The notes below the pieces were generated by a model. The model had not been told where the DNA came from, did no database searches, and saw only the letters and a program-made list of their open reading frames with translations. The position numbers and the translations under genes were made by a program. 64,000 bases of DNA from Arcobacter acticola (GTDB taxonomy: Bacteria; Campylobacterota; Campylobacteria; Campylobacterales; Arcobacteraceae), in NCBI RefSeq assembly GCF_013177675.1, contig NZ_CP042652.1:2852001-2916000 (forward strand), in the 5' to 3' direction. Each line of letters starts with the position of its first letter. Positions within the stretch are counted from its first letter, which is position 1. Shown piece by piece: positions 41,958-64,000 of this stretch.

Positions 41958-43097
41958 TTAGGCAACATCTATATCCGATAGAGACGAAACAGAGACGTTT
42001 TCTAGGAATAATGCACGCTTTTTCCTATCCTTTTTATTCTCTGATAACTTATAAAAATGTGTATAAGTTCTCAGTGTAATATCAACATTTTCATGTCCCA
42101 TCATTTGTGAAACCCAAGAAATATCTTCCCCTTCATTTATCATCATTGATGCAAAAGTATGTCTTAACTGATACAAATATCTATTATCATCTTTTGATAA
42201 CAATTTTTTAAACCTTGATGCAATATTATCATGACTGTAAAATGGTTTATTGTTAGAACTACAAAATACTTGATTAGCAACATTATCTTTTGTAAGAGAA
42301 TATTGCTGTAGAAAGTATTTTTTTACAATTGGAAGTATTTCAATTTCTCTTCTTGATGCTCTTGTTTTTGGTAATCCATCACTTCCAAGAATTCTTGTCT
42401 TATTTATTGAAATAGTTTCATTTTCAAAATCTATATCATCCCATCTTAAAGCTAATAATTCACCAGGTCTCATTCCTGTAAATGCTGATATTGCAATGAA
42501 ATTTTTCAAATAGCCATCTGCTTTACTTATTAAATCATTTACCTCATCCAACGAAAATGGATTAATTTTTGATGATGTTTCAAGCTTCTTTTGTTTTTTT
42601 GGCTTTAATACTTGAGCAAAAGGATTTTTCTCAATTAATTCCTCAAACAATGCATCTCTTAAGATTTGATTGAATATTGCTCTAAATTTTTTTACACTTG
42701 ATTCTTTATATGATTTCAATTTATCATTTTGCCAATCAAGTAATTCCATAGATTTAATACTATCTAATCTTCTTTTCCCAAAATATGGGAGAATATGTTT
42801 ATTGAAATTCATTAAATTTCTTTTTGATACATGTTCTCTTCTATCGTTATTATGACGCTCAAAACATATCAATGCATATTCTCCCAAAAGAAAAACTTTT
42901 TTTTCTCTTTTGTTTGGGTCAAATGTTCCTTCATTTATCTTTTTTTCTATATCTGGGATAATATTTTTTTCTAATAATTTCCTATTTTTAGAATTATCTT
43001 TTAATCCCATAGAACGTCTTATTCTTCTTCCATTTCCATAATGAATATCTAAATATAAAATATCACTATCTTTTTTTGTTCTTATCTTAACACTCAT
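41958..43097 (-). CDS. Tyrosine-type site-specific integrase
   Basis: 379-residue phage-type integrase that inserts and excises the island by strand exchange through a covalent tyrosine. The first Arg is in TGMRPGELLALRWDDID, the HxxR box is LRHTFAS, the second His is in MMGHENVDITLRTY, and the nucleophile Tyr follows in that segment or just after (TYTHFY). The N-terminal arm (KIRTKKDSDILYLDIHYG) and SAM-like core-binding domain are present, so it looks intact. It overlaps the upstream gene by four bases. Confidence 0.93.
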   Translation of the reverse strand: MSVKIRTKKDSDILYLDIHYGNGRRIRRSMGLKDNSKNRKLLEKNIIPDIEKKINEGTFDPNKREKKVFLLGEYALICFERHNNDRREHVSKRNLMNFNKHILPYFGKRRLDSIKSMELLDWQNDKLKSYKESSVKKFRAIFNQILRDALFEELIEKNPFAQVLKPKKQKKLETSSKINPFSLDEVNDLISKADGYLKNFIAISAFTGMRPGELLALRWDDIDFENETISINKTRILGSDGLPKTRASRREIEILPIVKKYFLQQYSLTKDNVANQVFCSSNNKPFYSHDNIASRFKKLLSKDDNRYLYQLRHTFASMMINEGEDISWVSQMMGHENVDITLRTYTHFYKLSENKKDRKKRALFLENVSVSSLSDIDVA

Positions 43098-51970: not shown

Positions 51971-52219
51971 ATGCAGAGTTATTTCATAAATCTAGCACTA
52001 ATAACTGATGGTATTGGTGCTTTTCTTATCTTTTTGAGTTTTAAAAAGAGTTCTAATAAATTACATATTATTAATTCTTTTATGAACACAGAAGAAACCA
52101 TAGACACTTTTGTCAAAGAAAAACTATATGCAAAGTATGGGGGATTATTAATCTTAATAGGTTTCTTAGAACAACTATCTATTATAAATATTTTCAAAGT
52201 TTACTCTTTTCAACATATT
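51971..52219 (+). pseudogene. Membrane protein gene, left copy interrupted by IS1634-type element
   Basis: The ATG follows the stop of the restriction gene directly, so it was its operon partner. Two membrane helices are encoded (INLALITDGIGAFLIFLSF and GGLLILIGFLEQLSIINIF). At 52219 the sequence runs into the insertion element and the frame ends at 52252 with element-derived residues. All but its first six bases are repeated exactly at 53978-54220, where the gene continues. The original product was 152 residues. Confidence 0.8.
51977..52219 (+). repeat. 243-bp target duplication, left copy
   Basis: Identical base for base to 53978-54220, and ends exactly where the terminal inverted repeat of the IS1634-type element begins. 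It starts AGTTATTTC and ends CAACATATT. The length is far beyond the usual target duplication but known for the IS1634 group. Confidence 0.9.
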
Positions 52220-53977
52220 CCTGACTTTCTCATATGGACACACACTTTTTAACTATTTTTAATTGCATTATAAACTTGTTGTTGAATTTCATCAAATTTC
52301 AAGTAGACTAATTTTCCATTTGTTCTAAGTGCAAACATATGTTTAATTATATCTCTTAAAAGTTTTTGTGAGAATTTAAATTTAATATTATTTTCTTTAA
52401 GTTTTGAATCAAACTCTTTATAAATTGAGTATGATACAAATGAAATAAGAATATGAGCCTTTATTCTGGTTTCTAGCCTATGGTATATGGGTCTGATTTT
52501 AAGATCAGTTTTTGATATTCTAAATGCTTGTTCTACTGCATATTGATTATTATAGTGTTCTATAATTTCACTTGGTGTTAGTGTAAAATCATTTGTAATA
52601 AAACCTTTTATACCATCTAATTTTGAATCATTATCAACTTTTTGATTATTGATATTAAAAGTGATATCACATTTATGATCATCGATGTTAAGATATTTAG
52701 CATAGTATGATAGTTTTAAATCTTTTTTTGTGATAGATTTTGAGAATTCAATTTTTTTCTTTAATCTTTCAAGTGCTTTATCTCTATTATGTTTATCTTT
52801 CTTAGCTCTTGCCGTTGAATATGAAAGAACTAACCTTTGATTGATATTTATGGATTGTTTATTGTCATTCTCATCAGTATATGGTATATCTTTATTAAAT
52901 TTAAGTGTATGAGTTACTCCATCATTTAAAAATATCAAGTTTGATATTTGCTCTTTTAAATCATTTGATATATTTTTTATTTTGGCTGCAAGGATATATT
53001 TATATCCATTATTTTCAAGATATACTAGATTATTATTGTTTAGCATTCCTCTATCAGCTACAACTACAGGTTTATTTTTTAATTGAAATTTATTTTGAAA
53101 CTTTTTAAGTACATCAACTAAAGTATGTCCCTCATATTTATTACCCTCATAAACCTCAAAGCTTAATGGATATCCTTGTAGTGTTGTAAACAATCCCAGT
53201 TGTATCTGAGGACGTGCTAATTTACCCTCTTTACTAAATCCAATACGTCTAAGATCGTCTTCACTCTCAGATTCAAAGTACAGGGTTGTAACATCATAAA
53301 ATGTAAATGCAATAGTTTGGTTCATTTTTGCATAAGTATGATCAAATACACATTTTTCAATTTGTAGTTTTAAATTCTCTTCATAAAGTGTATCTAAAAA
53401 TCTATAGATAGCATTTTTATCTACACTCTCTTTTTTAAAATATTCAAGATAATCAATCAAATATAATTTACTACCAGGATACAGTAATCTTGATACAACA
53501 AGATTTTTAAACATCTGAAGTCTTTTACAATCCAAATCTACACTAGAACATCCCAATCGTTCAAATAATTTTCCATAGATTAATTCATCACCTATTGGTA
53601 TTAAATCATTATTTCCAAGTTCTATGAATATTAACTCTTCATTTTTATTTTCATCAAATAAAGTAGGATACATTTGTTGACGCAGTTCTTCTAAACGTTT
53701 ATTTGCAACATCTAAATAAATTTGTAAATCTAAATCATTTTTTACACAAGCAATAGTTTCTATAACCTTATATTTCCTATGAACTCTATCGATAATCTGA
53801 ATACTGATTGTTCCACTACTATTTTTCTTCTGTCTAATATGTAAACTCATACTAAAATTGTAGCAGGTTTTAGACTATAGGACACACACTTTTATGAATT
53901 TTATAGTCTATAAAGCCCTTTAATAAGGGATATCACTTTTAGAAAAATTGATTTTTGATAAAAATGAGAAAGTCAGG
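52220..53977 (-). mobile_element. IS1634-type insertion element (1,758 bp)
   Basis: Perfect 14-bp terminal inverted repeats CCTGACTTTCTCAT (52220-52233) and ATGAGAAAGTCAGG (53964-53977). It contains one transposase on the minus strand and is bounded on both sides by a 243-bp direct repeat. A 14-bp direct repeat GGACACACACTTTT lies inside each end (52236-52249, 53880-53893). Intact and possibly active. Confidence 0.92.
52249..53850 (-). CDS. IS1634-family transposase
   Basis: 533-residue DDE transposase of the IS4 superfamily. The first Asp is in FYDVTTLYFESESEDDL, the second in VVADRGMLNNNNL, and the Glu in YAVEQAFRISKTDLKIRP (YREK-like). RPQIQLGLFTTLQGYPLSFEVYEGN (split by a loop) is typical of the IS1634/IS1549 group. 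The ATG at 53850 lies 127 bp inside the right end. The stop is 29 bp from the left end. Confidence 0.93.
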   Translation of the reverse strand: MSLHIRQKKNSSGTISIQIIDRVHRKYKVIETIACVKNDLDLQIYLDVANKRLEELRQQMYPTLFDENKNEELIFIELGNNDLIPIGDELIYGKLFERLGCSSVDLDCKRLQMFKNLVVSRLLYPGSKLYLIDYLEYFKKESVDKNAIYRFLDTLYEENLKLQIEKCVFDHTYAKMNQTIAFTFYDVTTLYFESESEDDLRRIGFSKEGKLARPQIQLGLFTTLQGYPLSFEVYEGNKYEGHTLVDVLKKFQNKFQLKNKPVVVADRGMLNNNNLVYLENNGYKYILAAKIKNISNDLKEQISNLIFLNDGVTHTLKFNKDIPYTDENDNKQSININQRLVLSYSTARAKKDKHNRDKALERLKKKIEFSKSITKKDLKLSYYAKYLNIDDHKCDITFNINNQKVDNDSKLDGIKGFITNDFTLTPSEIIEHYNNQYAVEQAFRISKTDLKIRPIYHRLETRIKAHILISFVSYSIYKEFDSKLKENNIKFKFSQKLLRDIIKHMFALRTNGKLVYLKFDEIQQQVYNAIKNS

Positions 53978-54430
53978 AGTTATTTCATAAATCTAGCACT
54001 AATAACTGATGGTATTGGTGCTTTTCTTATCTTTTTGAGTTTTAAAAAGAGTTCTAATAAATTACATATTATTAATTCTTTTATGAACACAGAAGAAACC
54101 ATAGACACTTTTGTCAAAGAAAAACTATATGCAAAGTATGGGGGATTATTAATCTTAATAGGTTTCTTAGAACAACTATCTATTATAAATATTTTCAAAG
54201 TTTACTCTTTTCAACATATTGAACTAATTTCATTGATTTTATTTGTAGTTTTTACTTTTGTATTGATACTTTCTGTTATGTATCGATTAATCAATGAAAA
54301 GAAAATATTGAAAGATGAAATTAAAAAATTTTATAAACCAAATAAATCAATTCAAAATGATGATATGATAAAAAAAGACAATCAAATAGAAAAGAACAAA
54401 AAACAAGAAGAATTAATGAAACTTTTTTAA
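53948..54430 (+). CDS. Membrane protein partner of the restriction gene, rebuilt right copy
   Basis: The duplicated segment restores everything but the first two codons of the interrupted gene, and the frame continues into the original downstream sequence. The new N-terminus would come from the element's end, starting at TTG 53948 (IFDKNEKVR before SYFINLAL). Three membrane helices and a lysine-rich cytoplasmic tail (KKDNQIEKNKKQEELMK) are predicted. I do not recognise the family. Expression now depends on promoter activity from the element or beyond it. Confidence 0.65.
   Translation: MIFDKNEKVRSYFINLALITDGIGAFLIFLSFKKSSNKLHIINSFMNTEETIDTFVKEKLYAKYGGLLILIGFLEQLSIINIFKVYSFQHIELISLILFVVFTFVLILSVMYRLINEKKILKDEIKKFYKPNKSIQNDDMIKKDNQIEKNKKQEELMKLF
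53978..54220 (+). repeat. 243-bp target duplication, right copy
   Basis: Exact second copy of 51977-52219. It begins immediately after the right terminal inverted repeat of the IS1634-type element and passes into unique sequence at 54221 (GAACTAATTTC). Confidence 0.9.
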
Positions 54431-54444
54431 TAACTCTAAATGAA

Positions 54445-54536
54445 CATCTAAACATATAATATTTATAAGTTTAGATGGTTAGATAAAGTTATATTTTATA
54501 TAACTCTAGTTATAATTTATAAGATTAAACTTATAA
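54445..54536. promoter_or_regulatory. Cluster of inverted repeats upstream of the resolvase (candidate res/operator site)
   Basis: CATCTAAAC/GTTTAGATG (54445-54453, 54469-54477) and TTATAAGTTTA/TAAACTTATAA (54463-54473, 54526-54536) are perfect inverted repeats sharing the GTTTA block. ATAAC-GTTAT symmetry and a TATAAT-like box near 54511 lie between. Resolvases usually bind paired sites beside their own gene. Confidence 0.4.
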
Positions 54537-54545
54537 AGGTTGAAA

Positions 54546-55172
54546 ATGAGTAAATATTTAGCATATATTAGAGTATCAACTGACAAACAATCATTAGAAA
54601 ATCAAAAACATAAAATTCTTGAATATGCTTATGAAAATAAAATCAAAATTGATGATTTTATTCAAATTGAAATTAGTAGTAGAAAAAATCAGAAAGATAG
54701 ATTATTAGATGATGTATTTCTTAGACTAAAAGATAATGATACTTTAATAGTAACAGAATTATCTAGACTAGGAAGAAATATGCTAGAAATTTTAAATTTA
54801 ATTGAAAGATTTAATAAATCAAATATTAAATTAATTTTTGTAAATCAACCTGAACTATCAACTGCAAATAATGCTCTCTCAAAATTACTACTTTCTATTT
54901 ATGGATATTTTGCAGAAACAGAAAGAGAAATCATAAGTGAGAGAACAAAGCAAGGTTTAGCAGTTGCAAAAGCTAAAGGTAAAAAACTAGGTAGACAAAA
55001 AGGGCAACAAGTTACAAGTAAATATGACGAATTTAAAGATAAAATAGAAGAACTATATATATTAGGTTTATCTGTACAAAGAATCGTTGATTACATTGGA
55101 ATAGGAACTCAAGCTTCATTAAGTACCTATATAAAAACAAGAAATATTTTAAGAAAGGATAAAAATGTATAA
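54546..55172 (+). CDS. Serine recombinase (resolvase/invertase family)
   Basis: 208-residue small serine recombinase. The catalytic domain has AYIRVSTDKQSLENQK with the nucleophile Ser, SSRKNQKDR, and ELSRLGRNMLEI with the arginines; the E-helix TEREIISERTKQGL and C-terminal helix-turn-helix (LSVQRIVDYIGIGTQASLSTY) follow. The ATG at 54546 has AAAGG six bases ahead, better than TTG 54540. It overlaps the next small gene by eight bases. Intact and probably active, unlike the degenerate homologue at 43652-46898. Confidence 0.92.
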   Translation: MSKYLAYIRVSTDKQSLENQKHKILEYAYENKIKIDDFIQIEISSRKNQKDRLLDDVFLRLKDNDTLIVTELSRLGRNMLEILNLIERFNKSNIKLIFVNQPELSTANNALSKLLLSIYGYFAETEREIISERTKQGLAVAKAKGKKLGRQKGQQVTSKYDEFKDKIEELYILGLSVQRIVDYIGIGTQASLSTYIKTRNILRKDKNV

Positions 55173-55401
55173 ACATGATTATGATAAAAAACTTTTTAGA
55201 CTTATTGATATTTTAGGTAAACTTTATAGAGAAGAAAATCTCTCTATTGATGAATATGCCCAAGAATACAATGTTTCTACAAAAACGATTCAAAGAGATT
55301 TTAATGAAAAACTTACATCCTTCCCCATTTATCAAGATGGAAAAATTTGGAAAATGAATAATGAAGAATTTACTAAATTATATTTTGATAAAAATCGTTG
55401 A
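55165..55401 (+). CDS. HTH-only fragment of a WYL-type regulator
   Basis: 78 residues closely related to the first 67 residues of the full WYL regulator at 55694 (YKHDYDK, VSTKTIQRDFNEKL, FPIYQD, WKM). It ends at NEEFTKLYFDKNR without the WYL ligand domain. AAAGGA precedes the ATG, which lies in the resolvase's last codons. It is either a truncated duplicate or a stand-alone DNA-binding protein that could compete with the full-length regulator. Confidence 0.6.
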   Translation: MYKHDYDKKLFRLIDILGKLYREENLSIDEYAQEYNVSTKTIQRDFNEKLTSFPIYQDGKIWKMNNEEFTKLYFDKNR

Positions 55402-55451
55402 ACCCACTAAATATTTTAAACTGGAGCTTCTTACGTAGTCTATACAATTTT

Positions 55452-55661
55452 CTATATATTATCAACTCTTTTAATTAACTCAAATTCATCTGTTCCTTCT
55501 AATATTAAGTCATTACAACATTTAAGAGAAAACTCATTTATAAATTTAGCTTTAAAATTATCTATATTATTTTCATTTAAATTATCTAAATCTAAACACC
55601 ATCCATAATCTTCATATATTTCTTCATTAATATTTATAAATTTTTCTATTCTTTCTATCAT
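55452..55661 (-). CDS. Small acidic hypothetical protein
   Basis: 69-residue acidic protein (many Asp, Glu, Asn), no membrane segment, no recognised domain. The ATG has AGAGGA at good spacing. It is the last gene of a minus-strand run that starts near the Fic gene, just after the WYL regulator. Size and charge would fit an antitoxin, inhibitor or immunity protein, but no evidence shows this. Confidence 0.5.
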   Translation of the reverse strand: MIERIEKFININEEIYEDYGWCLDLDNLNENNIDNFKAKFINEFSLKCCNDLILEGTDEFELIKRVDNI

Positions 55662-55693
55662 TAATTTCCTCTTTTAACTAAACAGGTTTATAT

Positions 55694-56620
55694 TTAAATA
55701 TTCAAATAACTCTTTAAATCTTCACAAATCATATCATCTATCCATTTTGGCTCTAGTATTTTTAGATTAGGTAACCAATATTTTATAATAGGAATTATTT
55801 CCATTTCATGGGTGATTTTAATTGAAATAATTGAACTTCCATCTTCATTTATTGATTCAAATATTTGAGAAGGTGAAATTGGTTTTCTTTTTATATATTT
55901 TGTAATATCTTTTGATATTTGTATTTTTACTTCAAATGGTTCTTTTGTGTTATCAAACCAGATACTTGAAACTTTTTCTAATATTCTATCTATTCTATCA
56001 TCAATTAAAAAAGTTGTACTTAGTGTTTTTAAATTTGATATATTTTTCAAATAGTATTTTTTAATTGATTCAGTATTTTTTTCATCAATTGCTAGAAGAT
56101 ACCAATATCCCTCAAAGTTTACTATTTTCAGTGGTTTCAATGTAAGATTTGAAATATCTGAATTATTTGATATATAGTTACAAGTTATTTCAAATTTTGA
56201 TTTTATAGCAATTTCAAGATGATGAATTATTTCTAATTTATCTTCAATATCTTCCATATTAATTTTTGCATAAATAGGATTATAATCATGATTTTTGATT
56301 TTTGATAATAGATTTTTTGCTTTAGTAGAAAATTGATTACCAACACCATCAACTAGTTTTTCCATAATATCTAAAATAACTTGTTCTTCTATTGATGTAG
56401 ATTTTTCTATTTTAAAACCGTCTTGCATTTTCCAAAGTCTATTATCTTGATAAATAGGAAAAGCAACTAGTCTTTCATTGAAATCTCTTTGAATTGTTCT
56501 AGTACTTACATTAAATTCATCTGCTAGTTCTTTTACTGATAAGCTATCACCATTGTATAGTTTAGATAGTATTGAAACTAATCTTGTTAATGTTTTATCA
56601 TAATCGTGTTTATATGCCAT
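55694..56620 (-). CDS. WYL-domain transcriptional regulator
   Basis: 308-residue regulator. Residues 1-65 form an HTH_11-type winged helix (VKELADEFNVSTRTIQRDFNERL). A WYL domain lies at about 135-205 (KFEITCNYISN, LKPLKIVNFEGYWYLLAIDE) and a C-terminal WCX-like region follows (PFEVKIQISKDI). WYL regulators often sense nucleic-acid ligands and control phage-defence operons. It is read in the same direction as the unknown small genes upstream and may regulate that cluster. Confidence 0.88.
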   Translation of the reverse strand: MAYKHDYDKTLTRLVSILSKLYNGDSLSVKELADEFNVSTRTIQRDFNERLVAFPIYQDNRLWKMQDGFKIEKSTSIEEQVILDIMEKLVDGVGNQFSTKAKNLLSKIKNHDYNPIYAKINMEDIEDKLEIIHHLEIAIKSKFEITCNYISNNSDISNLTLKPLKIVNFEGYWYLLAIDEKNTESIKKYYLKNISNLKTLSTTFLIDDRIDRILEKVSSIWFDNTKEPFEVKIQISKDITKYIKRKPISPSQIFESINEDGSSIISIKITHEMEIIPIIKYWLPNLKILEPKWIDDMICEDLKSYLNI

Positions 56621-56647
56621 TGTTTTTACTTTTATTTGAATTTTAAA

Positions 56648-57079
56648 TTATTCTACACAATTGTATTTTAATTGCACATATCTTTTTGTAGTTAAATCTT
56701 TATAAACCAACTCTTGGGAAATAACTCCACCTTTTTTTGGAGGTGGAGTTATTTTTATATTTCCAAGAGTTTTTGATTTTATATAAATATCAAAACCTAA
56801 AAGATAATCTAAATCATAATAATCATCATACTCTTCAACTTTTACACTTTCATTTGGTTTTACATTTTCATAATAATACTTAGGATTTTTCTCTAAAGCA
56901 GAATCTTCAATCAAACCAAAACTATCACTAGAAACTACATCTAAAGTCTCATCACTTTCATTTACAAAATATAAAGCTCCTTTATAATTTAGAAGAGAGA
57001 AAAGCACTTCTCTTTTTATAGGTCTTGGAGGAAATTCTGGATATTCCCATTTTAGATTATTTGTTCTATCTTGTTTCAT
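56648..57079 (-). CDS. Hypothetical protein in the WYL cluster
   Basis: 143-residue soluble acidic protein with a proline-rich start (PEFPPRPIKREVLFSLLNY) and a mostly beta-like sequence (YKGALYFVNESDETLDVVSSDSFG). AAAAGGA precedes the ATG. I do not recognise the family. Near its 3' end the codons for KITPPPKKGGVI contain a 13-bp inverted repeat. It lies 27 bp before the WYL gene. Confidence 0.55.
   Translation of the reverse strand: MKQDRTNNLKWEYPEFPPRPIKREVLFSLLNYKGALYFVNESDETLDVVSSDSFGLIEDSALEKNPKYYYENVKPNESVKVEEYDDYYDLDYLLGFDIYIKSKTLGNIKITPPPKKGGVISQELVYKDLTTKRYVQLKYNCVE
56719..56754 (-). repeat. 13-bp inverted repeat inside a coding sequence
   Basis: AAATAACTCCACC (56719-56731) and GGTGGAGTTATTT (56742-56754) are exact complements with a 10-nt loop. 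It is unusually GC-rich for this region and would form a stable hairpin in the mRNA. No T run follows on the minus strand. Confidence 0.6.
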
Positions 57080-57098
57080 TTATTCATCCTTTTTTACT

Positions 57099-57581
57099 TT
57101 AATCATAATATTGATAAGTAACCTTTATATCACTATAAATTTCACCAATATTTAATATATCTTCCCAGTTTAAATCACTATGGTCATAAAGAGAGTGAAA
57201 CAACCAACAATGATAATCATCTTTCATAATATGATTTTCCCAAGAATTAAATTCATTATGATTAGAATCATTCCAAGGATATATACTTCTTTTTATTGAG
57301 ATTCTTTTGAGATATTCATATATGATTGTTAAAAAATTATCATCATCTTTTTTATAAGAGGGATGATTTTCTTTTAACACAAATTTTATTTCTAATTCTA
57401 TTTCATAATCTTCTAATAAATCATCTTTATTAGATAGTTTATAAATCAAATCTTTATCAATTTTTATAGCTTCTTTTATTAGTTTATCTTGCAAATTTTT
57501 TAGTCTAATATTTAAGCTTTGTAATTCTTTTAATTGATAAATTGTTAAATCTTTTACATCCATAATAAATTGCCTCTTCAT
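57099..57581 (-). CDS. Hypothetical protein in the WYL cluster
   Basis: 160-residue soluble protein. The N-terminal 60 residues are a charged helical region (LKELQSLNIRLKNLQDKLIKEAIK). The C-terminus has a dense aromatic/His signature (YHCWLFHSLYDHSDLNW, then YQYYD) that looks like a conserved family hallmark, though I cannot name it. Two starts are possible: ATG 57581, or ATG 57563 with GAGG nine bases ahead. Its start lies inside the cREC-like fragment, read in another frame. Confidence 0.5.
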   Translation of the reverse strand: MKRQFIMDVKDLTIYQLKELQSLNIRLKNLQDKLIKEAIKIDKDLIYKLSNKDDLLEDYEIELEIKFVLKENHPSYKKDDDNFLTIIYEYLKRISIKRSIYPWNDSNHNEFNSWENHIMKDDYHCWLFHSLYDHSDLNWEDILNIGEIYSDIKVTYQYYD

Positions 57582-57645
57582 AACTTCTAACTATTACATC
57601 ATAATTATCTTGAGGAATTCTCAAGTCATCTAAATATAACTTCAT
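57505..57645 (-). pseudogene. cREC-like (cyclic-phosphate-processing receiver) domain fragment
   Basis: A 46-codon frame that starts MKLYLDDLRIPQD and continues YDVIVRSYEEAIYYG, closely matching the start of cREC receiver-like domains (pattern LYLDDLRxP...VRTxEEAI). The usual SFDHDLG segment and the rest are missing, so it is a remnant or a very short gene. GGAGAGG precedes the ATG, which overlaps the upstream gene's stop (TAATG). Its end overlaps the start of the gene at 57581. Confidence 0.5.
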
Positions 57646-58106
57646 TAAACCTCTCCTAAATCAATAGTATTCATATGTTTATGTTCTAAATTTCTAAAAT
57701 ACTTATGAAGCATTTGTTTGTTTTTTTTTGTTAATGATTTAATACTTTTCTTTTGTCTTGGAAATGAATCATGAATTGCCTTTTCATATTTCAAAAAAGT
57801 ATCAATTTCTTTTTTATATGGATATTGTTCATATAATAAAGCTTCAAACTCTAAAAAACCATTTTCTTCCACATGTATAATAAACATTCCTTTATTTGTA
57901 TCAAAAATATAAATACCTTGAACGCTCTCTTTCCAAGGTGTTCTTGATTTTAAATAAACTGTTGCACACCCTTTATCTTTACAATTACACTTCGAATATA
58001 TAAATAGTTTATTTTGTATATATCTATTTCTAAATTCTATTTTTACGAACTTAAAGAACCTTTTTAAAAATTCTAAAAAAATTGGTGTATCATTTAGTGA
58101 GTGCAT
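57645..58106 (-). CDS. Hypothetical protein in the WYL cluster
   Basis: 153-residue soluble protein. A short Cys motif (SKCNCKDKGCATVYLKS) near 38-55 could bind metal, followed by beta-like sequence (GIYIFDTNKGMFIIHVEENGFLEFEALL) broken by a loop and a basic helical C-terminus (RQKKSIKSLTKKNKQMLHKYF). Not recognised. Its stop overlaps the start of the cREC-like fragment, so the two were translated together. Confidence 0.5.
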   Translation of the reverse strand: MHSLNDTPIFLEFLKRFFKFVKIEFRNRYIQNKLFIYSKCNCKDKGCATVYLKSRTPWKESVQGIYIFDTNKGMFIIHVEENGFLEFEALLYEQYPYKKEIDTFLKYEKAIHDSFPRQKKSIKSLTKKNKQMLHKYFRNLEHKHMNTIDLGEV

Positions 58107-58117
58107 TTATCATGTCC

Positions 58118-58387
58118 TTATAAGTTTATATTTTCTAAATATATTGATTTTAAAATTTCTTTAGATTTTTCGCATAATTCAATTTCATGACAGCTTGGCT
58201 TTTCTGATTTTTCATATACATATTTAACAGGAACGGCATATTGTGAATGATACGAAGAACTACCCTCAAAAGGTTCAATTAACTTTACACAATAATCTTT
58301 TGACCAGTACTCTAGTTCACCTTTTAATAAAACACCATCTACTGTTGTTTCGATTTGAATTGTTTTTGTTTTTATATTTTTATTCAT
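58118..58387 (-). CDS. Small hypothetical protein in the WYL cluster
   Basis: 89-residue protein with a beta-rich N-terminus (IQIETTVDGVLLKGELEYWSK) and a helical end containing CHEIELCEKSKEIL. AAAGGA lies nine bases before the ATG. No known domain seen. It is the first gene of the minus-strand run that leads through the unknown genes to the WYL regulator, 11 bp before the next gene. Confidence 0.5.
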   Translation of the reverse strand: MNKNIKTKTIQIETTVDGVLLKGELEYWSKDYCVKLIEPFEGSSSYHSQYAVPVKYVYEKSEKPSCHEIELCEKSKEILKSIYLENINL

Positions 58388-58485
58388 TTTTCATTATCCT
58401 TTTATTTTAAAACAGTCGATACATTTTTTACTGTTTTTATATTGTAATTATAAGATAGCTATGTGACAACATTATGTCTGTTTAA

Positions 58486-59613
58486 TTAAATATTAATAAC
58501 ATAACTTACATTTCTACCAGCAGTTCCTTCTTTTTGTTTAATACATCCACATTCAATTAATTCAGATAAATCTCTTGATGCTGTGGCTGATGTAGTATCT
58601 GCAATACTCATATATTTTTTTTTACTTAAATTTCCTTTGAAATCATCAATTCCAATATCTAAAATAAAGTTAAGTACTTTTATTTGTCTTGCATTTAAAT
58701 TATTATTTTTATATTTATCCCAAAATTTTGTTTTTTGTACAATAAAAGCTAATTTCTTTTTTGTATCAAGTAATGCTTCATAAAGTGTAGATAAAAACCA
58801 TTCACACCAAATTGTAATATCAAGGTGATTATCCTCTTTTTTAATATATCCAGTTGTTTGTTCAAGTGCTTTATAATAAGCTTTTCTATTTGTATTTATA
58901 GCACTTGACATAGAGTAAAGTCTTGATATTTTTGAGTTTTCGATTTTTGATAAAACCAAATCTGTAATTGCTCTTGTGATTCTTCCATTTCCATCATCAA
59001 AGGGATGAATAATTACAAACCAAAGATGAGCAATACAAGCTTTTATTAATCCTTCTTTTGTTGAATTAAACCAAGTTAAAAAGTTATTCATTTCATCTTC
59101 AAGATTATCTCTTGGCGGTGCTTCATAATAAACTTCTTCATTTCCTGCATAGCCACCAACTATTTGCATAATATCATCACCTCTAAAAGTAGCTATATTA
59201 GTTTGATTAAATCCTTCATAATCTTTTGGAAAAATTGCACCATGCCAAGCAAAAAGTCTTTCAAGTGTTAAATCTTGATTGTAGTTTGTATTTGCATCAA
59301 TTAGCACTTCAATAAGATATTCAACAGAATTATCAATCTTTTTATAATCAATATCTCTAAAACCCATTTTCTTTTGAATAGATGCTTTTACACTATCACG
59401 ATTTAATATTTTTCCTTCAATTGCAGATGTTGCTATTGCTTCATTTTCAAGTGCTTCTATTTGTCTATTTATTACATTTGTATTATCCATAGTTTGAGTA
59501 ATAGCTATTAAGTAGCCTTGTTCTATTGATATTTTTTGGATTAAGTCTTCTAGTTTTTTAGAATCATAGGTAAAGTGTGGATAATCTTTTTGTTGCCATA
59601 TCCATTTTTTCAT
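58486..59613 (-). CDS. Fic family protein with C-terminal winged helix
   Basis: 375-residue Fic protein, an AMP-transferase-type enzyme. The catalytic motif HPFDDGNGR is at 203-211. The inhibitory motif T62-SAI-E66-G lies N-terminal (class II Fic), so activity is self-restrained. The N-terminal MKKWIWQQKDYPHF region is typical of this subfamily. Residues about 310-375 form a winged helix (IADTTSATASRDLSELIECG), suggesting DNA binding. An inverted-repeat site directly upstream fits autoregulation. GGA precedes the ATG. Confidence 0.9.
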   Translation of the reverse strand: MKKWIWQQKDYPHFTYDSKKLEDLIQKISIEQGYLIAITQTMDNTNVINRQIEALENEAIATSAIEGKILNRDSVKASIQKKMGFRDIDYKKIDNSVEYLIEVLIDANTNYNQDLTLERLFAWHGAIFPKDYEGFNQTNIATFRGDDIMQIVGGYAGNEEVYYEAPPRDNLEDEMNNFLTWFNSTKEGLIKACIAHLWFVIIHPFDDGNGRITRAITDLVLSKIENSKISRLYSMSSAINTNRKAYYKALEQTTGYIKKEDNHLDITIWCEWFLSTLYEALLDTKKKLAFIVQKTKFWDKYKNNNLNARQIKVLNFILDIGIDDFKGNLSKKKYMSIADTTSATASRDLSELIECGCIKQKEGTAGRNVSYVINI

Positions 59614-59624
59614 AAGATTTTTCC

Positions 59625-59691
59625 TTTATGATACGATTATTTATTATAATCATATCATAAATGATGTGAATAAACTGTTTTATCGTATCAT
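59625..59691. promoter_or_regulatory. Candidate operator of the fic gene: three copies of a half-site
   Basis: TTTATGATACGATTAT (59625-59640) and ATAATCATATCATAAA (59646-59661) are inverted with one mismatch in 16 and a 5-nt spacer. A third copy, TTTTATCGTATCAT (59678-59691), is in inverted orientation. The shared half-site ATGATACGAT lies just upstream of the fic ribosome binding site. Confidence 0.55.
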
Positions 59692-59720
59692 TTTCTAAAT
59701 ATTCTTTTTAATTTCATTTA

Positions 59721-60332
59721 TTATCCTAATAAATCTTCAACCGTATATCTATCTAAAATATATTTTTTCAACTTTTTAAATTCATCTATTAATATTTTAT
59801 TTGAATCATTTAATTTAGTTTTTAATTCAACTTTTAATTCATAAGTTGATACATCAATTTTATTATATTCATTTAGATAAATACTATCTGAATCATCTAA
59901 ATCAATTTTAAGAGCATTTGTATGTAATTGTTTTGAATTTTGTTCAATAAATCCAATACTATATTCTTCCATTATAAAACCATATAAGCTTTTTGCATTA
60001 TATATTTTATTTATATAACTTTCACTCATATCTTCATGACTTAGATATGATAGATTTAAAAGATATTCTTTAAGTGAATCATTTAATTTCTCTAAATCTT
60101 GATTAAGAAAAAATCTCCATTTATCAGAAGGCTTACCAAAAGATGAGTTTTGTAAATTGGCTTCATTAAAATCATGAACTAAATAATGGTTTGCAACTAA
60201 ATTAATATCACTTACTACTTCTTCTAAACATCTATATGTAGAATAAACTCTTTTAGGATTTTCTAGATTTTCTTCTTTTTTTAGTGCATCATCAAAAACT
60301 TTTTTTGTGATAAATATTATATCTTCTAACAT
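59721..60332 (-). CDS. Hypothetical helical protein after mcrC
   Basis: 203-residue soluble, mostly helical acidic protein with no recognised motif. I use the ATG at 60332, preceded by AAAGGGAAC; an open frame reaches back into mcrC but has no site there. It lies 58 bp downstream of mcrC on the same strand and 107 bp before fic. It may be an accessory subunit of the McrBC system, by position only. Confidence 0.55.
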   Translation of the reverse strand: MLEDIIFITKKVFDDALKKEENLENPKRVYSTYRCLEEVVSDINLVANHYLVHDFNEANLQNSSFGKPSDKWRFFLNQDLEKLNDSLKEYLLNLSYLSHEDMSESYINKIYNAKSLYGFIMEEYSIGFIEQNSKQLHTNALKIDLDDSDSIYLNEYNKIDVSTYELKVELKTKLNDSNKILIDEFKKLKKYILDRYTVEDLLG

Positions 60333-60390
60333 ATTTGTTCCCTTTTTTACTTTTTGTATAATAAAAGTATATAGTATTAAGTAGACAGCT

Positions 60391-61677
60391 TTATGTCTGA
60401 CTATATTTAAAAATCTCATACTTTTCTTCATTTTTATGAATTTCATTTTTAAAACAATGTTTATTTTCACATACATCAAAAAATAAAACATTTAAATGTA
60501 ACTCATCTTTTAATTTTTTCTCTTCATCATTTCTAAAATATTGATAAGAGTTTTGAATATCTAATCCATCATAAGGATAAATTAAATACATATATTTACA
60601 ATCTTTATATTTTGTTCCATATGCATATAATTGATACATATCACTTTGTGAGATACCTTGATGTGTTTTATCTTCACTAAGCAGTTTCCATTTTGTATCA
60701 GCTATTATTTCACCCTTATTAATAACTATATCAGGTTTTAATTGGAACTTTGAGATTTTTCCATCTAAGTAAGCTAAATGATGTTCTTTATCTTGAGCTG
60801 TAATATCATCAAAATTACCATTTCTCTTTAGATAATCATACACATAAGATTCAAAAAGTAAATTCATATCAAATAAAAGAGCAAATGCAACATCATTTCC
60901 TTTATAAGGTGAGAATGAATTTTCAAGTAAAAAAGTTTTGCACCATAAAAGAACTTGTTCATAATCTTTCATTTGTCTATTTAATTTTAGATTTGAGAAA
61001 TCTGTTTTTATATTATGTGAAATTCCCATTTCATCAAATACAAATAAAAATTCTCTAATTCTTTGCTGATTTTTATTTAACTTTGATTTTTTATACAGAT
61101 ATTGAAGTGTAGTTTTTATAAGCCTATTTTCTATTCTATCACTCATAAATTCTTCATATTGAACAAAAAAACGCTCTTTATGAATAGTGTTATATTTTAT
61201 TTGTTCAGATATTTTTAGTTTACCTTTTAAAAATCTTAGATTTTCTTCTTTGCTAATATAATCTGATTTTATACCTTTTTTAATAAGTTTAGATAACTCT
61301 TCTAAAAACATTGATATAAATATTTCAAGTAAAGGCATTTTTGAAGATTTTAGATTTGCCATATTAAAGTTTTTGAATGGAGATTTCTTTAGAGTTTTTA
61401 ACATCTTTATTAAAATCTCTTTTGATTTATTCTCATCTACATTTTGAATTTTAGGCAATATCTCTATTATTGTTCCATCTTTTGTTTGTATTACACCTAC
61501 ATAGTTTTGGGCTTGAAGAACTTTTCCAAACCCTTTTTTTGTAGTAATTTTTAGATATTGGGCTGTTTCTTCATTGTCTAATACAAATTTTTCTAATGCT
61601 TCAAAAGATTCAGGTTTAATATAATTTTCCTTATCTTCATCTCTATATTGAAGATATTGAAACTCTTTAATTATCAA
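60391..61677 (-). CDS. mcrC: McrC, nuclease subunit of McrBC restriction system
   Basis: 428-residue partner of McrB that supplies the PD-(D/E)xK endonuclease and stimulates GTP hydrolysis in the complex. The N-terminal region (KITTKKGFGKVLQAQNYVGV, IIEILPKI) is typical of the family. The nuclease core reads FQLKPDIVINKGEIIADTKWK near 325, with the catalytic Asp and DTK present. It starts within the last 11 bases of mcrB. Intact. Confidence 0.9.
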   Translation of the reverse strand: MIIKEFQYLQYRDEDKENYIKPESFEALEKFVLDNEETAQYLKITTKKGFGKVLQAQNYVGVIQTKDGTIIEILPKIQNVDENKSKEILIKMLKTLKKSPFKNFNMANLKSSKMPLLEIFISMFLEELSKLIKKGIKSDYISKEENLRFLKGKLKISEQIKYNTIHKERFFVQYEEFMSDRIENRLIKTTLQYLYKKSKLNKNQQRIREFLFVFDEMGISHNIKTDFSNLKLNRQMKDYEQVLLWCKTFLLENSFSPYKGNDVAFALLFDMNLLFESYVYDYLKRNGNFDDITAQDKEHHLAYLDGKISKFQLKPDIVINKGEIIADTKWKLLSEDKTHQGISQSDMYQLYAYGTKYKDCKYMYLIYPYDGLDIQNSYQYFRNDEEKKLKDELHLNVLFFDVCENKHCFKNEIHKNEEKYEIFKYSQT

Positions 61678-64000
61678 TTTTATTTTCCTCTTCTATAATC
61701 TGTTTTATTTGAGGATAATTACTATAAATTTTAATATACATTATTTCTACAAAGATATTATTTACCTTATATTCTATAGCTTCATTTTCAATATCAGGAT
61801 GGTCAAATCCTAAAATTTCTTCTTCTGTTATTACTTTACTTTGTATAAATTGATATTCTAAATATTCTTTTAAATTTGATTTCTTTTTAAATTGTTCAGG
61901 ATGGTCTCCTAAAACAATTTGAATTTTTTCCCAATCATCATAAAAATACTCTTGTAATAATGGAATGATTTTATTCCTAAAAATATTGTCAAGTTCTACT
62001 TTTTTATCTAATATTTTTTCATCTTTTAAACTCATAAAATAAGCATGACCTATTGTGTGGTCTCTATCATATAAATATTCTATTCTTTTATTTACAGTTT
62101 CAAGAAGAGATTTAATATTAATTTTATCTACCATTAAATCATTACCATTCTCATCTTTAAGCAAATCAGGATTAGGCATCATCTCTTCAAAATGAAATCT
62201 TCTTCTTAATGCTGTATCCATTAAAGCGATACTTCTATCTGCTGTATTCATCGTACCTATAATATATAAGTTTTGTGGAACGCCAAATTCATCTCCACTA
62301 TAAGGAAGTTTTACTCTTATTTCTTCATCTGCACCAATTCTTTTTGATGGTTCTATTAATGTAATAAGTTCTCCAAAGATTTTTGAAATATTTCCTCTAT
62401 TTATTTCATCTATTATTAGGATGTAGTTTTTGTTATTTTCTTTTTCTGATATATCATTTTGAGTTAATAAATTTTTCAATGAATCTAATTTTGTATTATT
62501 TTTAATATCATAAATTGACATTTGTGAAAATTGTTTTTTTAATATTTTTTCAAAAGAAAATGCTTCATCTGGAACCAATAACCATTCAACTTCTCTTGAT
62601 TGTACATATGTTCTTAATGTATCATCATCTATATATTTATAATCACCAATAATTTTGGCTATAGCTCTTAATTTTCTATTACCATAAGATACTAAAACTA
62701 TATCATCTTTTTTCATTTTATTTTTTAATATATTTATTGCTGTTGGCGGGTAACTATACTTCTCATTGTCATCAAGTTTTTTAGCAATTGAATCTCTATT
62801 TACACAATCACTAAAATCTAATCCATTTCCAAATCCGAGTAAAATTTTATTATTTTCAATACAATAATTGAATAAATAGTCATCTTCACTATTTTGAGAA
62901 TCCCCTAAAGATATTTTCCAAACATTAACTTTTTCATCAAAATCATAAATAGACTTTTTTTCTGATTTAATACTCTTTGCTTGTTCACATAAGCGTTTAA
63001 AAATACCTGCTTCAATATCATATGTAATTATTTTATTTTCATTATCAGTGATTGTTTGTGCTTTAATCCCTTCAACAAACTCTTCATATCCATAACTTTG
63101 ATGAAGTGTTACAAACTCTATTTGACCTCTTTGTTCATCTTTAAAATATTCAAACAATCCTTTTAAATGCTGTCTTTTTTTAATTTCATCATTAATCTCT
63201 AAAATTCTATTATATGTTTTTTCAATAGGTTCTATATCATTGCCATCTTTATCTTTTACTTTAAAATCATATTCTGTTTTTCTATCATTTTCTTTTTCAA
63301 AAATAATTTCTAAAGCTTTATTAATAGTATTATATGTTTTCCCAGTTCCTGGACTTCCATATAATATTTGGTTTAAGGGCTGAAATTTCATTATTATATC
63401 TTCTGAATTTTCAAATTCTTCTTTTTCTTCATAAACTTCAATTTCATCTTTTTTATCATTAAGTTTTGTTTTCTCCCATAATTTTGTTGAATAATCAAAA
63501 ATTGATATATTCACTGGTTTATTATTTATTAATTCTTCTTGAATTTCATAAATTTTGTTTTTACTAGATAATTCATTTAATGCTTTTTTTGCAAAGATAT
63601 CAATTAAATCACCTTTTTCTGCATATAAAAAAGCGATTTTCCATTTTATTCCATCTCCAAAAAGAGTTGAATTTTCTATTTCTTTAAAATTCTTTTTTAT
63701 TGCAAATTCAATTATTTTAATAATTTCATTTTTAACTTTCTGGAATGCATCAGTACAATTAGTACCTAAACTTTTATGCCATGCATATTTTTCATCATAT
63801 AGGATATTTATTTTTGTAGGTACTTTATCGTACATATATATCTTAAATTTTGAACTATCTCCACCTCTTATACTTCCTATATCTGGTGTATTATGTTCTA
63901 AATCATAAGTAAAATCTTTTCTGTTTTTACCACCTTTTGAACTATAATCTTCAATTGTTAAATTTTTTATTTTATTCAAATTCCATTTTTCTGTAAACTT
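61667..64000 (-). CDS. mcrB: McrB, GTPase/AAA+ subunit of McrBC with EVE-like insertion (5' end outside window)
   Basis: The frame is open to the window edge and the residues before TTG 63979 (FTEKWN) still look coding, so the true start lies outside. Numbering from 63979: an N-terminal domain (FTYDLEHNTPDIGSIRGGDSS-like), Walker A GSPGTGKT at 208-215, HQSYGYEEFVEGI near 293, and Walker B ILIIDEINRGN near 520. The sensor region IIGTMNTADRS and LRRRFHF follow. Between the Walker motifs, at about 351-490, lies an EVE-like module (VWKISLGD, DDIVLVSYGNRKLRAIAKIIGDYKY, REVEWL). It would read modified bases and direct cleavage with McrC. Confidence 0.88.
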   Translation of the reverse strand, partial: KFTEKWNLNKIKNLTIEDYSSKGGKNRKDFTYDLEHNTPDIGSIRGGDSSKFKIYMYDKVPTKINILYDEKYAWHKSLGTNCTDAFQKVKNEIIKIIEFAIKKNFKEIENSTLFGDGIKWKIAFLYAEKGDLIDIFAKKALNELSSKNKIYEIQEELINNKPVNISIFDYSTKLWEKTKLNDKKDEIEVYEEKEEFENSEDIIMKFQPLNQILYGSPGTGKTYNTINKALEIIFEKENDRKTEYDFKVKDKDGNDIEPIEKTYNRILEINDEIKKRQHLKGLFEYFKDEQRGQIEFVTLHQSYGYEEFVEGIKAQTITDNENKIITYDIEAGIFKRLCEQAKSIKSEKKSIYDFDEKVNVWKISLGDSQNSEDDYLFNYCIENNKILLGFGNGLDFSDCVNRDSIAKKLDDNEKYSYPPTAINILKNKMKKDDIVLVSYGNRKLRAIAKIIGDYKYIDDDTLRTYVQSREVEWLLVPDEAFSFEKILKKQFSQMSIYDIKNNTKLDSLKNLLTQNDISEKENNKNYILIIDEINRGNISKIFGELITLIEPSKRIGADEEIRVKLPYSGDEFGVPQNLYIIGTMNTADRSIALMDTALRRRFHFEEMMPNPDLLKDENGNDLMVDKINIKSLLETVNKRIEYLYDRDHTIGHAYFMSLKDEKILDKKVELDNIFRNKIIPLLQEYFYDDWEKIQIVLGDHPEQFKKKSNLKEYLEYQFIQSKVITEEEILGFDHPDIENEAIEYKVNNIFVEIMYIKIYSNYPQIKQIIEEENKIDN

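Follow-up and report, generated by a model that had tools for sequence, protein, structure and literature searches.

What is a run of small, unassignable genes beside a WYL regulator doing in the chromosome of Arcobacter acticola? The run lies at positions 55452-58387 of a stretch of 64,000 nucleotides (hereafter the window; contig NZ_CP042652.1, positions 2,852,001 to 2,916,000) from a genome that consists of a single contig of 3,019,071 bases, and an initial annotation, made from the letters alone, had singled it out as the likeliest place in the window for an undescribed defence or immunity module. We consider the cluster most likely to be a cassette for nicotinamide adenine dinucleotide (NAD+)/ADP-ribose or RNA-end processing that is derepressed through its WYL protein, a reading of its function in which our belief and our doubt are about evenly matched. 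We read the cassette as recombined from the known pool of sirtuin, cREC (cyclic-phosphate processing receiver), Macro, and ADP-ribosylglycohydrolase conflict genes, and as a mosaic with one broken member. Its novelty lies in two of the protein families that it encodes, designated A and D, which are found time and again in the company of sirtuins and cREC; the kind of gene set as such has already been conceived in print.

Across other genomes, members of families A and D are repeatedly accompanied by genes for sirtuins, intact cREC, Macro, ADP-ribosylglycohydrolase, SLOG, AAA, and WYL proteins. Profiles of 20 families, built partly from the scanned loci themselves, were run against 22 hit loci, two stretches of the window's own genome, and 20 controls; the controls were windows of 18 kb from four genomes and the loci ranged from 3 to 34 kb (24 kb for the window), and both this difference in size and the origin of the profiles make the contrast approximate. 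The 21 loci counted for A or D include the window, as well as D in genomes G020 (interrupted by stops) and G009 (a fragment), and leave out four duplicates (L040, L041, L043, and L053), L036, which has neither A nor D, and L037. A WYL gene or an NAD+/ADP-ribose gene (Sir2, cREC, Macro, ADP-ribosylglycohydrolase, or SLOG) was present in 16/21 of these loci and in 1/20 controls (Fisher p 2.7e-6). Loci carrying D (16 in total) held WYL (7), MLED, a recurrent partner from an unnamed family (7), SLOG (6), Sir2a (4), AAA (4), cREC (3), McrC (3), Fic (3), Sir2b (2), Macro (1), and ADP-ribosylglycohydrolase (1), while the nine carrying A held Sir2a (7), WYL (6), MLED (6), cREC (4), McrC (4), Fic (2), and Sir2b (1). 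Among the controls, one had SLOG and one had Fic. Pfam confirmed the cREC, SIR2, AAA, WYL/WCX, ADP-ribosylglycohydrolase, Macro, SLOG, and GmrSD assignments in sampled members.

Gene order in individual loci makes the association concrete. In Sulfurimonas (L039) the order is McrC-Fic-MLED-(MLED-like::cREC fusion)-A-x-x-Sir2-D, the fusion gene matching the MLED profile at 3.8e-12 and cREC at 2.9e-41. McrC, Fic, MLED, cREC, A, and D are common to this locus and the window, though not arranged in quite the same way, the window being without Sir2 and most of cREC but with P7, E, and WYL. Genome G013 (L029) reads McrC-McrB-McrC-..-MLED-..-A-B-cREC-Sir2a-AAA-x-WYL-..-Sir2b, G045 (L028) reads MLED-ADP-ribosylglycohydrolase-D-Sir2b, and G076 (L035) reads Macro-x-D-WYL, where D precedes WYL as in the window but with no E in between. 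On pACIB, a plasmid of Aliarcobacter cibarius, a stretch of 34 kb holds cREC, SLOG, D, three WYL genes, AAA, B, MLED, A, and Sir2. In Sulfuricurvum (L044, 1032-2447), a D domain is joined to a histone-deacetylase domain (2.5e-44) in a gene that is convergent with a sirtuin gene. The sirtuin gene expected in the neighbourhood of a sirtuin-cREC RNA-repair system is present in L029, L038, and L039.

The window retains a trace of the cREC component. The ORF (open reading frame) cREC' aligned with cREC_REC (PF20274) over positions 1-27 of 88 only (24.2 bits, cut-off 27), far from the roughly 88 positions of a full receiver domain, and three intact cREC proteins (from L029, pACIB, and the window's own genome), searched by tblastn against 41001-64000, aligned at 57562-57648 with E values down to 1.5e-9 and elsewhere gave one chance match (E 0.60). 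The cREC-like fragment of the initial annotation is indeed a broken gene, which retains about 28 codons and stops where D begins. The same genome has a single intact cREC elsewhere (187737-188030), next to a WYL gene that is split in two, as well as a single island-type Sir2 (1420800-1421309, 2.9e-125), so service in trans is possible. The adjacent cREC and Sir2 genes of L029, with A and B just before them, and the Sir2-D pair of L039 suggest an ancestral row A-cREC-Sir2-D-WYL, from which, on grounds of parsimony, one deletion could have removed the end of cREC together with Sir2.

The regulator itself was correctly recognized by the initial annotation. Its N-terminal helix-turn-helix (HTH) domain HTH_11 (9.6e-8) is accompanied by WYL (3.4e-7) and WCX (1.5e-7) domains, each above the Pfam cut-off, and relatives at E <= 1e-40 occur in 35 of 120 genomes, its own included, the best other match having 79% identity. 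We scrutinized the neighbourhoods of 14 of the 44 matches outside the window's genome, a set chosen for WYL and with no control of its own, and found McrBC in two (L111 and L120), AAA in four, Macro in one (L113), ADP-ribosylglycohydrolase in one (L119), GmrSD-type genes in two, and SLOG in one, as well as DUF2779 in L111, L113, and L118. Directly downstream of a promoter-like site (58469-58441) preceding P7, the inverted repeat AAAACAGT-N13-ACTGTTTT is no more than a candidate for the WYL operator. Perfect 8-base repeats with at least two G/C between window genes occupied 15 positions at about eight sites, compared with a Markov model mean of 1.3 positions. Promoter-like sites in the region numbered 36 vs. 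a mean of 44.5 in shuffles, i.e., fewer, and support for the P7 promoter is consequently weak. A looser form of the AAACAGT...ACTGTTT pattern also occurred once each in controls L067 and L070. Excerpts of PMC9122601 offer a precedent in BrxR, a WYL protein that binds inverted repeats downstream of its own promoter, where they stand after a -10 box, and whose homologues were beside known phage-defence systems in 212/347 cases.

The four proteins that the initial annotation could not assign, P7, A, D, and E, likewise found no explaining family in Pfam, NCBIfam, PHROGs, or PADLOC, and the profile searches it had proposed matched no housekeeping or conjugation family. Weak library matches of D to T4_baseplate (0.015) and E to phrog_27957 (0.0082) were taken as chance; Pfam scans of individual members of D (nine) and A (six) likewise returned only weak matches, none above cut-off for A, and sequence searches of solved structures gave best values of 0.84 for D and 0.068 for A. 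Relatives of D were detected in 9/150 related genomes, its own included, on one plasmid, and, by a pattern scan of a collection of 84,980 species, on eight contigs; those with names belong to Campylobacterota and one Deltaproteobacterium. Relatives of A were detected in 7/150 related genomes and 5/298 genomes of a phylum sample, its own included in both, and on three plasmids, pACIB among them and two of the three partial. This range for A reflects searches of related genomes, the phylum sample, and plasmid, phage, and viral sequences, the collection of 84,980 species having been scanned with D only. A weak match to A in G111 (36% over 44 amino acids; L037) was dropped and is uncounted. Residues C40, C42, C47, and T49 are invariant in six A sequences, and N18, D52, E54, H118, C119, W120, F122, H123, L125, Y126, D127, H128, I139, and Q151 in nine D sequences. 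Structure prediction, also proposed in the initial annotation, succeeded for D and failed for A: the AlphaFold2 model of D combines one long and two short helices with three strands (predicted local distance difference test score, pLDDT, 84.5). Its best VIA-align hit, DNA polymerase eta (Z 4.9, root-mean-square deviation 3.2, 90 aligned), lies in the range of common arrangements and was not used.

These data also bear on whether the cluster is debris, with the small genes of several dead systems lying side by side in an island and none of them working, which we regard as rather unlikely. The broken cREC, a truncated second copy of the WYL N-terminus that overlaps the stop of a serine recombinase (54540-55172), the insertion sequence (IS) elements and recombinase nearby, the near-orphan status of E and P7, and the broken D genes of G020 and G009 would all fit such a history; against it, the ORFs of A, D, E, P7, and WYL are unbroken and tightly spaced, all but WYL preceded by Shine-Dalgarno-like motifs, and D in the window keeps the invariant residues of its family. 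Intact relatives of A and D in several other species mark both as more than chance ORFs.

If the cluster is a WYL-derepressed processing cassette, WYL would act at the 58409-58437 repeat, immediately behind the promoter, to keep its own unit repressed until phage attack causes the accumulation of an ADP-ribose derivative or of nucleic-acid ends with a cyclic phosphate. A and D would then act with sirtuin and cREC on NAD+-derived ADP-ribose products or damaged RNA ends, running beside McrBC and Fic. In the window copy, recombination would have deleted the remainder of cREC, probably along with a Sir2 gene behind it, leaving the activity either lost or supplied in trans by the intact cREC and Sir2 encoded elsewhere in the genome. 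A more ambitious version, which we hold only tentatively and with more doubt than belief, is that D and A are functional components of a sirtuin/cREC/ADP-ribose conflict system, undescribed so far and under WYL control, in Campylobacterota, that D is a new enzyme or adaptor with a fold unmatched in the PDB, and that the window copy acts in trans with the chromosomal cREC and Sir2. The invariant His, Cys, and Asp residues of D, its one deacetylase fusion, and an adjacent sirtuin gene in three loci are the traits behind the enzyme or adaptor proposal.

Several observations weigh against an NAD+/ADP-ribose or RNA-end processing cassette. Between 41001 and 64000, tblastn found neither Sir2 (six proteins, best E 0.17) nor ADP-ribosylglycohydrolase (one protein, from L028, best E 0.42), and no Macro was found, so the NAD+/ADP-ribose link rests on the neighbourhoods of other genomes. 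WYL and all NAD+/ADP-ribose profiles were missing from 5/21 A or D loci (L030, L033, L034, L045, and L046), of which two are short contigs and one, L033, has MLED and McrBC; 8/14 neighbourhoods of WYL relatives, some of them short contigs, had none of the other profiled families. In L039, P7, E, and WYL were not in the stretch covered and cREC stands before A, not after it; the order A-cREC-Sir2-D was assembled from different genomes and the Sir2 deletion is a guess. P7 and E have almost no relatives, the former in 2/150 related genomes, its own included, and the latter in 1/150, its own; E had none in the plasmids or phages searched either, and its reality rests on its ORF, Shine-Dalgarno motif, and spacing. 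A phage origin of D and A was rejected, since searches of phage records and of viral contigs detected neither. The model of D found no clear structural relative (Foldseek best E 2.9 in PDB, 0.31 in BFVD), and that of A, built from three sequences, is unusable (pLDDT 48). The operator pattern, found once in 64 kb and in 0/100 shuffles, was picked after being seen; its exact form AAACAGT...ACTGTTT was confined to the window when 18 further loci (15 island-type and three own-genome stretches) and the 20 controls were searched, and it was absent from the 14 loci of WYL relatives (L110-L123). Nor was the repeat in the 160 bases before ten WYL relatives, though these need not be the promoters of their units.

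In its detailed layout, the span contains seven ORFs, one more than the six closely packed genes first described, whose location, strand, and content otherwise stand (Table 1). The two motifs highlighted at the outset fall in A and D, and the coupling of start and stop codons is real, A and cREC' sharing one base and cREC' and D overlapping by 59 nucleotides. The latter figure takes D to start at 57563, inside cREC'; the D ORF at its longest runs from 57099 to 57581 (160 amino acids), and 57563 is most likely the true start, rather than 57581, because AAGAGG precedes its ATG and nothing similar precedes 57581. Gaps elsewhere are short (P7-A 11, D-E 19, E-WYL 27, and WYL-69-amino-acid ORF 32 nucleotides), and Shine-Dalgarno-like motifs precede P7, A, cREC', D (57563), E, and the 69-amino-acid ORF. 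That last ORF matched no family at E <= 0.01 in Pfam, NCBIfam, PADLOC, or PHROGs. Inside E, a perfect 14-nucleotide inverted repeat with an 8-nucleotide loop (56719-56754) overlaps the region's only terminator-like site and might dampen transcription into WYL; terminator-like sites in the region were in no excess over shuffles, and no Rfam family reached gathering score in 53500-61000.

Table 1. Features of the cluster and the adjoining block, in window positions
Feature	Position	Strand	Basis
McrB-like AAA motor	61667-63979	-	AAA_5 PF07728 4.2e-11, adjoins McrC; PADLOC matches partial
McrC	60391-61677	-	PF10117 1.8e-101
MLED gene, ~203 amino acids	59721-60332	-	Start chosen by Shine-Dalgarno-like motif
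Fic protein, DUF4172 + Fic, HPFDDGNGR readable	58486-59613	-	Domain search; relative in Sulfurimonas L039
Promoter-like TTGTCA-17-TACAAT for the P7-to-WYL unit	58441-58469	-	Consensus match 10/12; weak
Inverted repeat, candidate WYL operator (putative role)	58409-58437	.	Repeat search
P7, 89 amino acids, first gene of the likely transcription unit	58118-58387	-	ORF, Shine-Dalgarno-like motif, relative in G084
A, 153 amino acids, C-x-C-x4-C-A-T family, motif CNCKDKGC	57645-58106	-	ORF, relatives
cREC', truncated cREC, 46 amino acids, ~28 of them cREC	57505-57645	-	PF20274, tblastn
D, 154 amino acids, HCWxFHxLYDH family, carries YHCWLFHSLYDH	57099-57563	-	Shine-Dalgarno-like motif, relatives, AlphaFold2 model
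E, 143 amino acids, orphan in the sets searched	56648-57079	-	ORF
WYL regulator, 308 amino acids, HTH_11 + WYL + WCX	55694-56620	-	Pfam
69-amino-acid ORF after WYL, possible last gene	55452-55661	-	ORF, Shine-Dalgarno-like motif
Truncated second copy of the WYL N-terminus	55165-55401	+	64.6% identity to WYL residues 3-67, E 1.2e-24

The cassette forms the end of an McrB-McrC-MLED-Fic block that runs in the same direction, on an island of an Arcobacteraceae-type chromosome, the full minus-strand order being McrB-like, McrC, MLED, Fic, P7, A, cREC', D, E, WYL, and the 69-amino-acid ORF. McrBC systems cleave DNA and Fic proteins transfer adenosine monophosphate; the block upstream of the cassette has both the McrC and the AAA-type motor that define the former. 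MLED, queried as its longer ORF, matched no family at E <= 0.01 in Pfam, NCBIfam, PADLOC, or PHROGs. The cluster could be an accessory or regulatory cassette of McrBC, with WYL controlling McrBC and Fic and with P7, A, and D modulating McrBC or protecting against it. The shared direction, the relative of P7 in G084 (72% identical) directly after an McrBC pair, the occurrence of McrC (3/16 D loci and 4/9 A loci vs. 0/20 controls), and the McrBC genes beside WYL relatives in L111 and L120 speak for this idea, which we judge improbable given that 13/16 D loci are without McrC in the scanned stretch and that McrC and D are adjacent in no scanned locus. Still less probable, in our estimate, is a toxin-antitoxin or orphan immunity-protein array in which small neutralizers face Fic or other island toxins. 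The small proteins do adjoin Fic, and Fic proteins of Campylobacter fetus form toxin-antitoxin networks (excerpt of PMC5651007), whereas P7, A, D, and E matched no toxin, antitoxin, or immunity family in four libraries and Fic was found in just 3/16 D loci and 2/9 A loci. Before Fic, an imperfect palindrome (59628-59691, arms of 31 nucleotides, 74%) surrounds a promoter-like site; it is unlike the repeat before P7 and is possibly a separate candidate operator.

The foreign-looking stretch that contains the cluster starts near a tyrosine recombinase (41958-43097; XerC/XerA-like, under the NCBIfam cut-offs), and at about 42 kb the G+C content falls from 0.29-0.34 to 0.21-0.27. Its other end seems to fall beyond the window, between a DUF2779 gene (PF11074 1.3e-43; 64024-65505 when numbered from the window start) and a moaC gene (PF01967 1.2e-53). 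No tRNA genes, and hence no integration site, were found in the window. Other cargo includes an IS21-type pair (IstB PF01695 3.3e-61), a Type IIG restriction enzyme (PADLOC 4.3e-170), an IS1634-family element, and a serine recombinase. The IS1634-family element (52249-53850; NCBIfam NF033559, 7.3e-101) is flanked by an exact 244-base direct duplication (51976-52219 and 53977-54220), and elsewhere in the genome (L056 12264-13865) a second coding copy, identical over its 1602 bases, lies between the repeats of an exact 411-base duplication. For IS1549 and IS1634, the part of PMC2266710 consulted describes long variable duplications of 8-514 bases without a mechanistic model. An AAA ATPase (L029 10595-12238 and relatives) also recurs in the islands and partially matches models of the anti-phage ATPase IetA/IteA (PADLOC 1.8e-26; NCBIfam 4.5e-22, under cut-off). 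As regards the module first proposed, its defence-type setting (Type IIG enzyme, McrBC, Fic, and WYL) and the recurrence of A, D, and WYL near conflict genes support it in part and make the defence reading plausible. In the form first stated it is not supported: co-occurrence is partial and no six-gene set is conserved, A and D sharing a locus in only 4/21 cases, the window included, and the genes it contains suggest NAD+/ADP-ribose and RNA-repair conflict genes, a class that the literature had already conceived.

Families A and D are recurrent, unnamed, and worth seeking in defence islands. How host sets of sirtuin, cREC, and Macro genes counter ADP-ribosylation and RNA damage, whether caused by viruses or by the cell itself, is largely a matter of prediction (sections of PMC9503650). 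For such gene sets, the Campylobacterota islands provide small, separable test units that offer these two conserved families, a candidate operator, and natural versions in which Sir2 and cREC are present or missing.

Among known systems, McrBC Type IV restriction resembles the locus in the McrC and AAA_5 motor genes that lie upstream on the same strand; the small unassigned genes are not known as part of classical McrBC. A search of PMC11090510 for terms including WYL, Fic, and Sir2 met nothing beyond a reference. According to excerpts of PMC9122601, BrxR shares with the window an HTH, a WYL, and a C-terminal domain, a defence-type island, and an inverted repeat right after a -10-like box. It differs in that the WYL gene here is near the end of its unit and in that the repeat, here a candidate from sequence, is 8+13+8 as opposed to 11+5+11. 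The ADP-ribosylglycohydrolase-centred conflict systems, in which WYL or Nudix repressors are predicted to sense ADP-ribose (PMC9503650 section 3.8), have in common with the window a WYL one-component regulator, variable accreted genes, and restriction-type neighbours; L028 has an ADP-ribosylglycohydrolase gene next to D, L119 has one in the vicinity of its WYL relative, and Macro lies near D in L035. They differ in their ADP-ribosylglycohydrolase, of which none was found in 41001-64000, and they also have TY-Chap, ARPP, and phosphatase partners. Finally, sections 3.4.5 and 3.7.3 of PMC9503650 predict roles for cREC and sirtuins in RNA repair and cyclic ADP-ribose processing. The phage sirtuin-cREC neighbourhoods of section 3.7.3 have further partners (RNA ligase, 2H, and Nudix, for which no dedicated search was made here), and they differ from the window, which has a cREC remnant and, in 41001-64000, no detected Sir2. 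The likeness lies in the cREC and Sir2 genes that stand side by side in L029 and in one row in L039, in loci that, unlike the phage neighbourhoods, are chromosomal or plasmid-borne in Campylobacterota and have the added families A and D.

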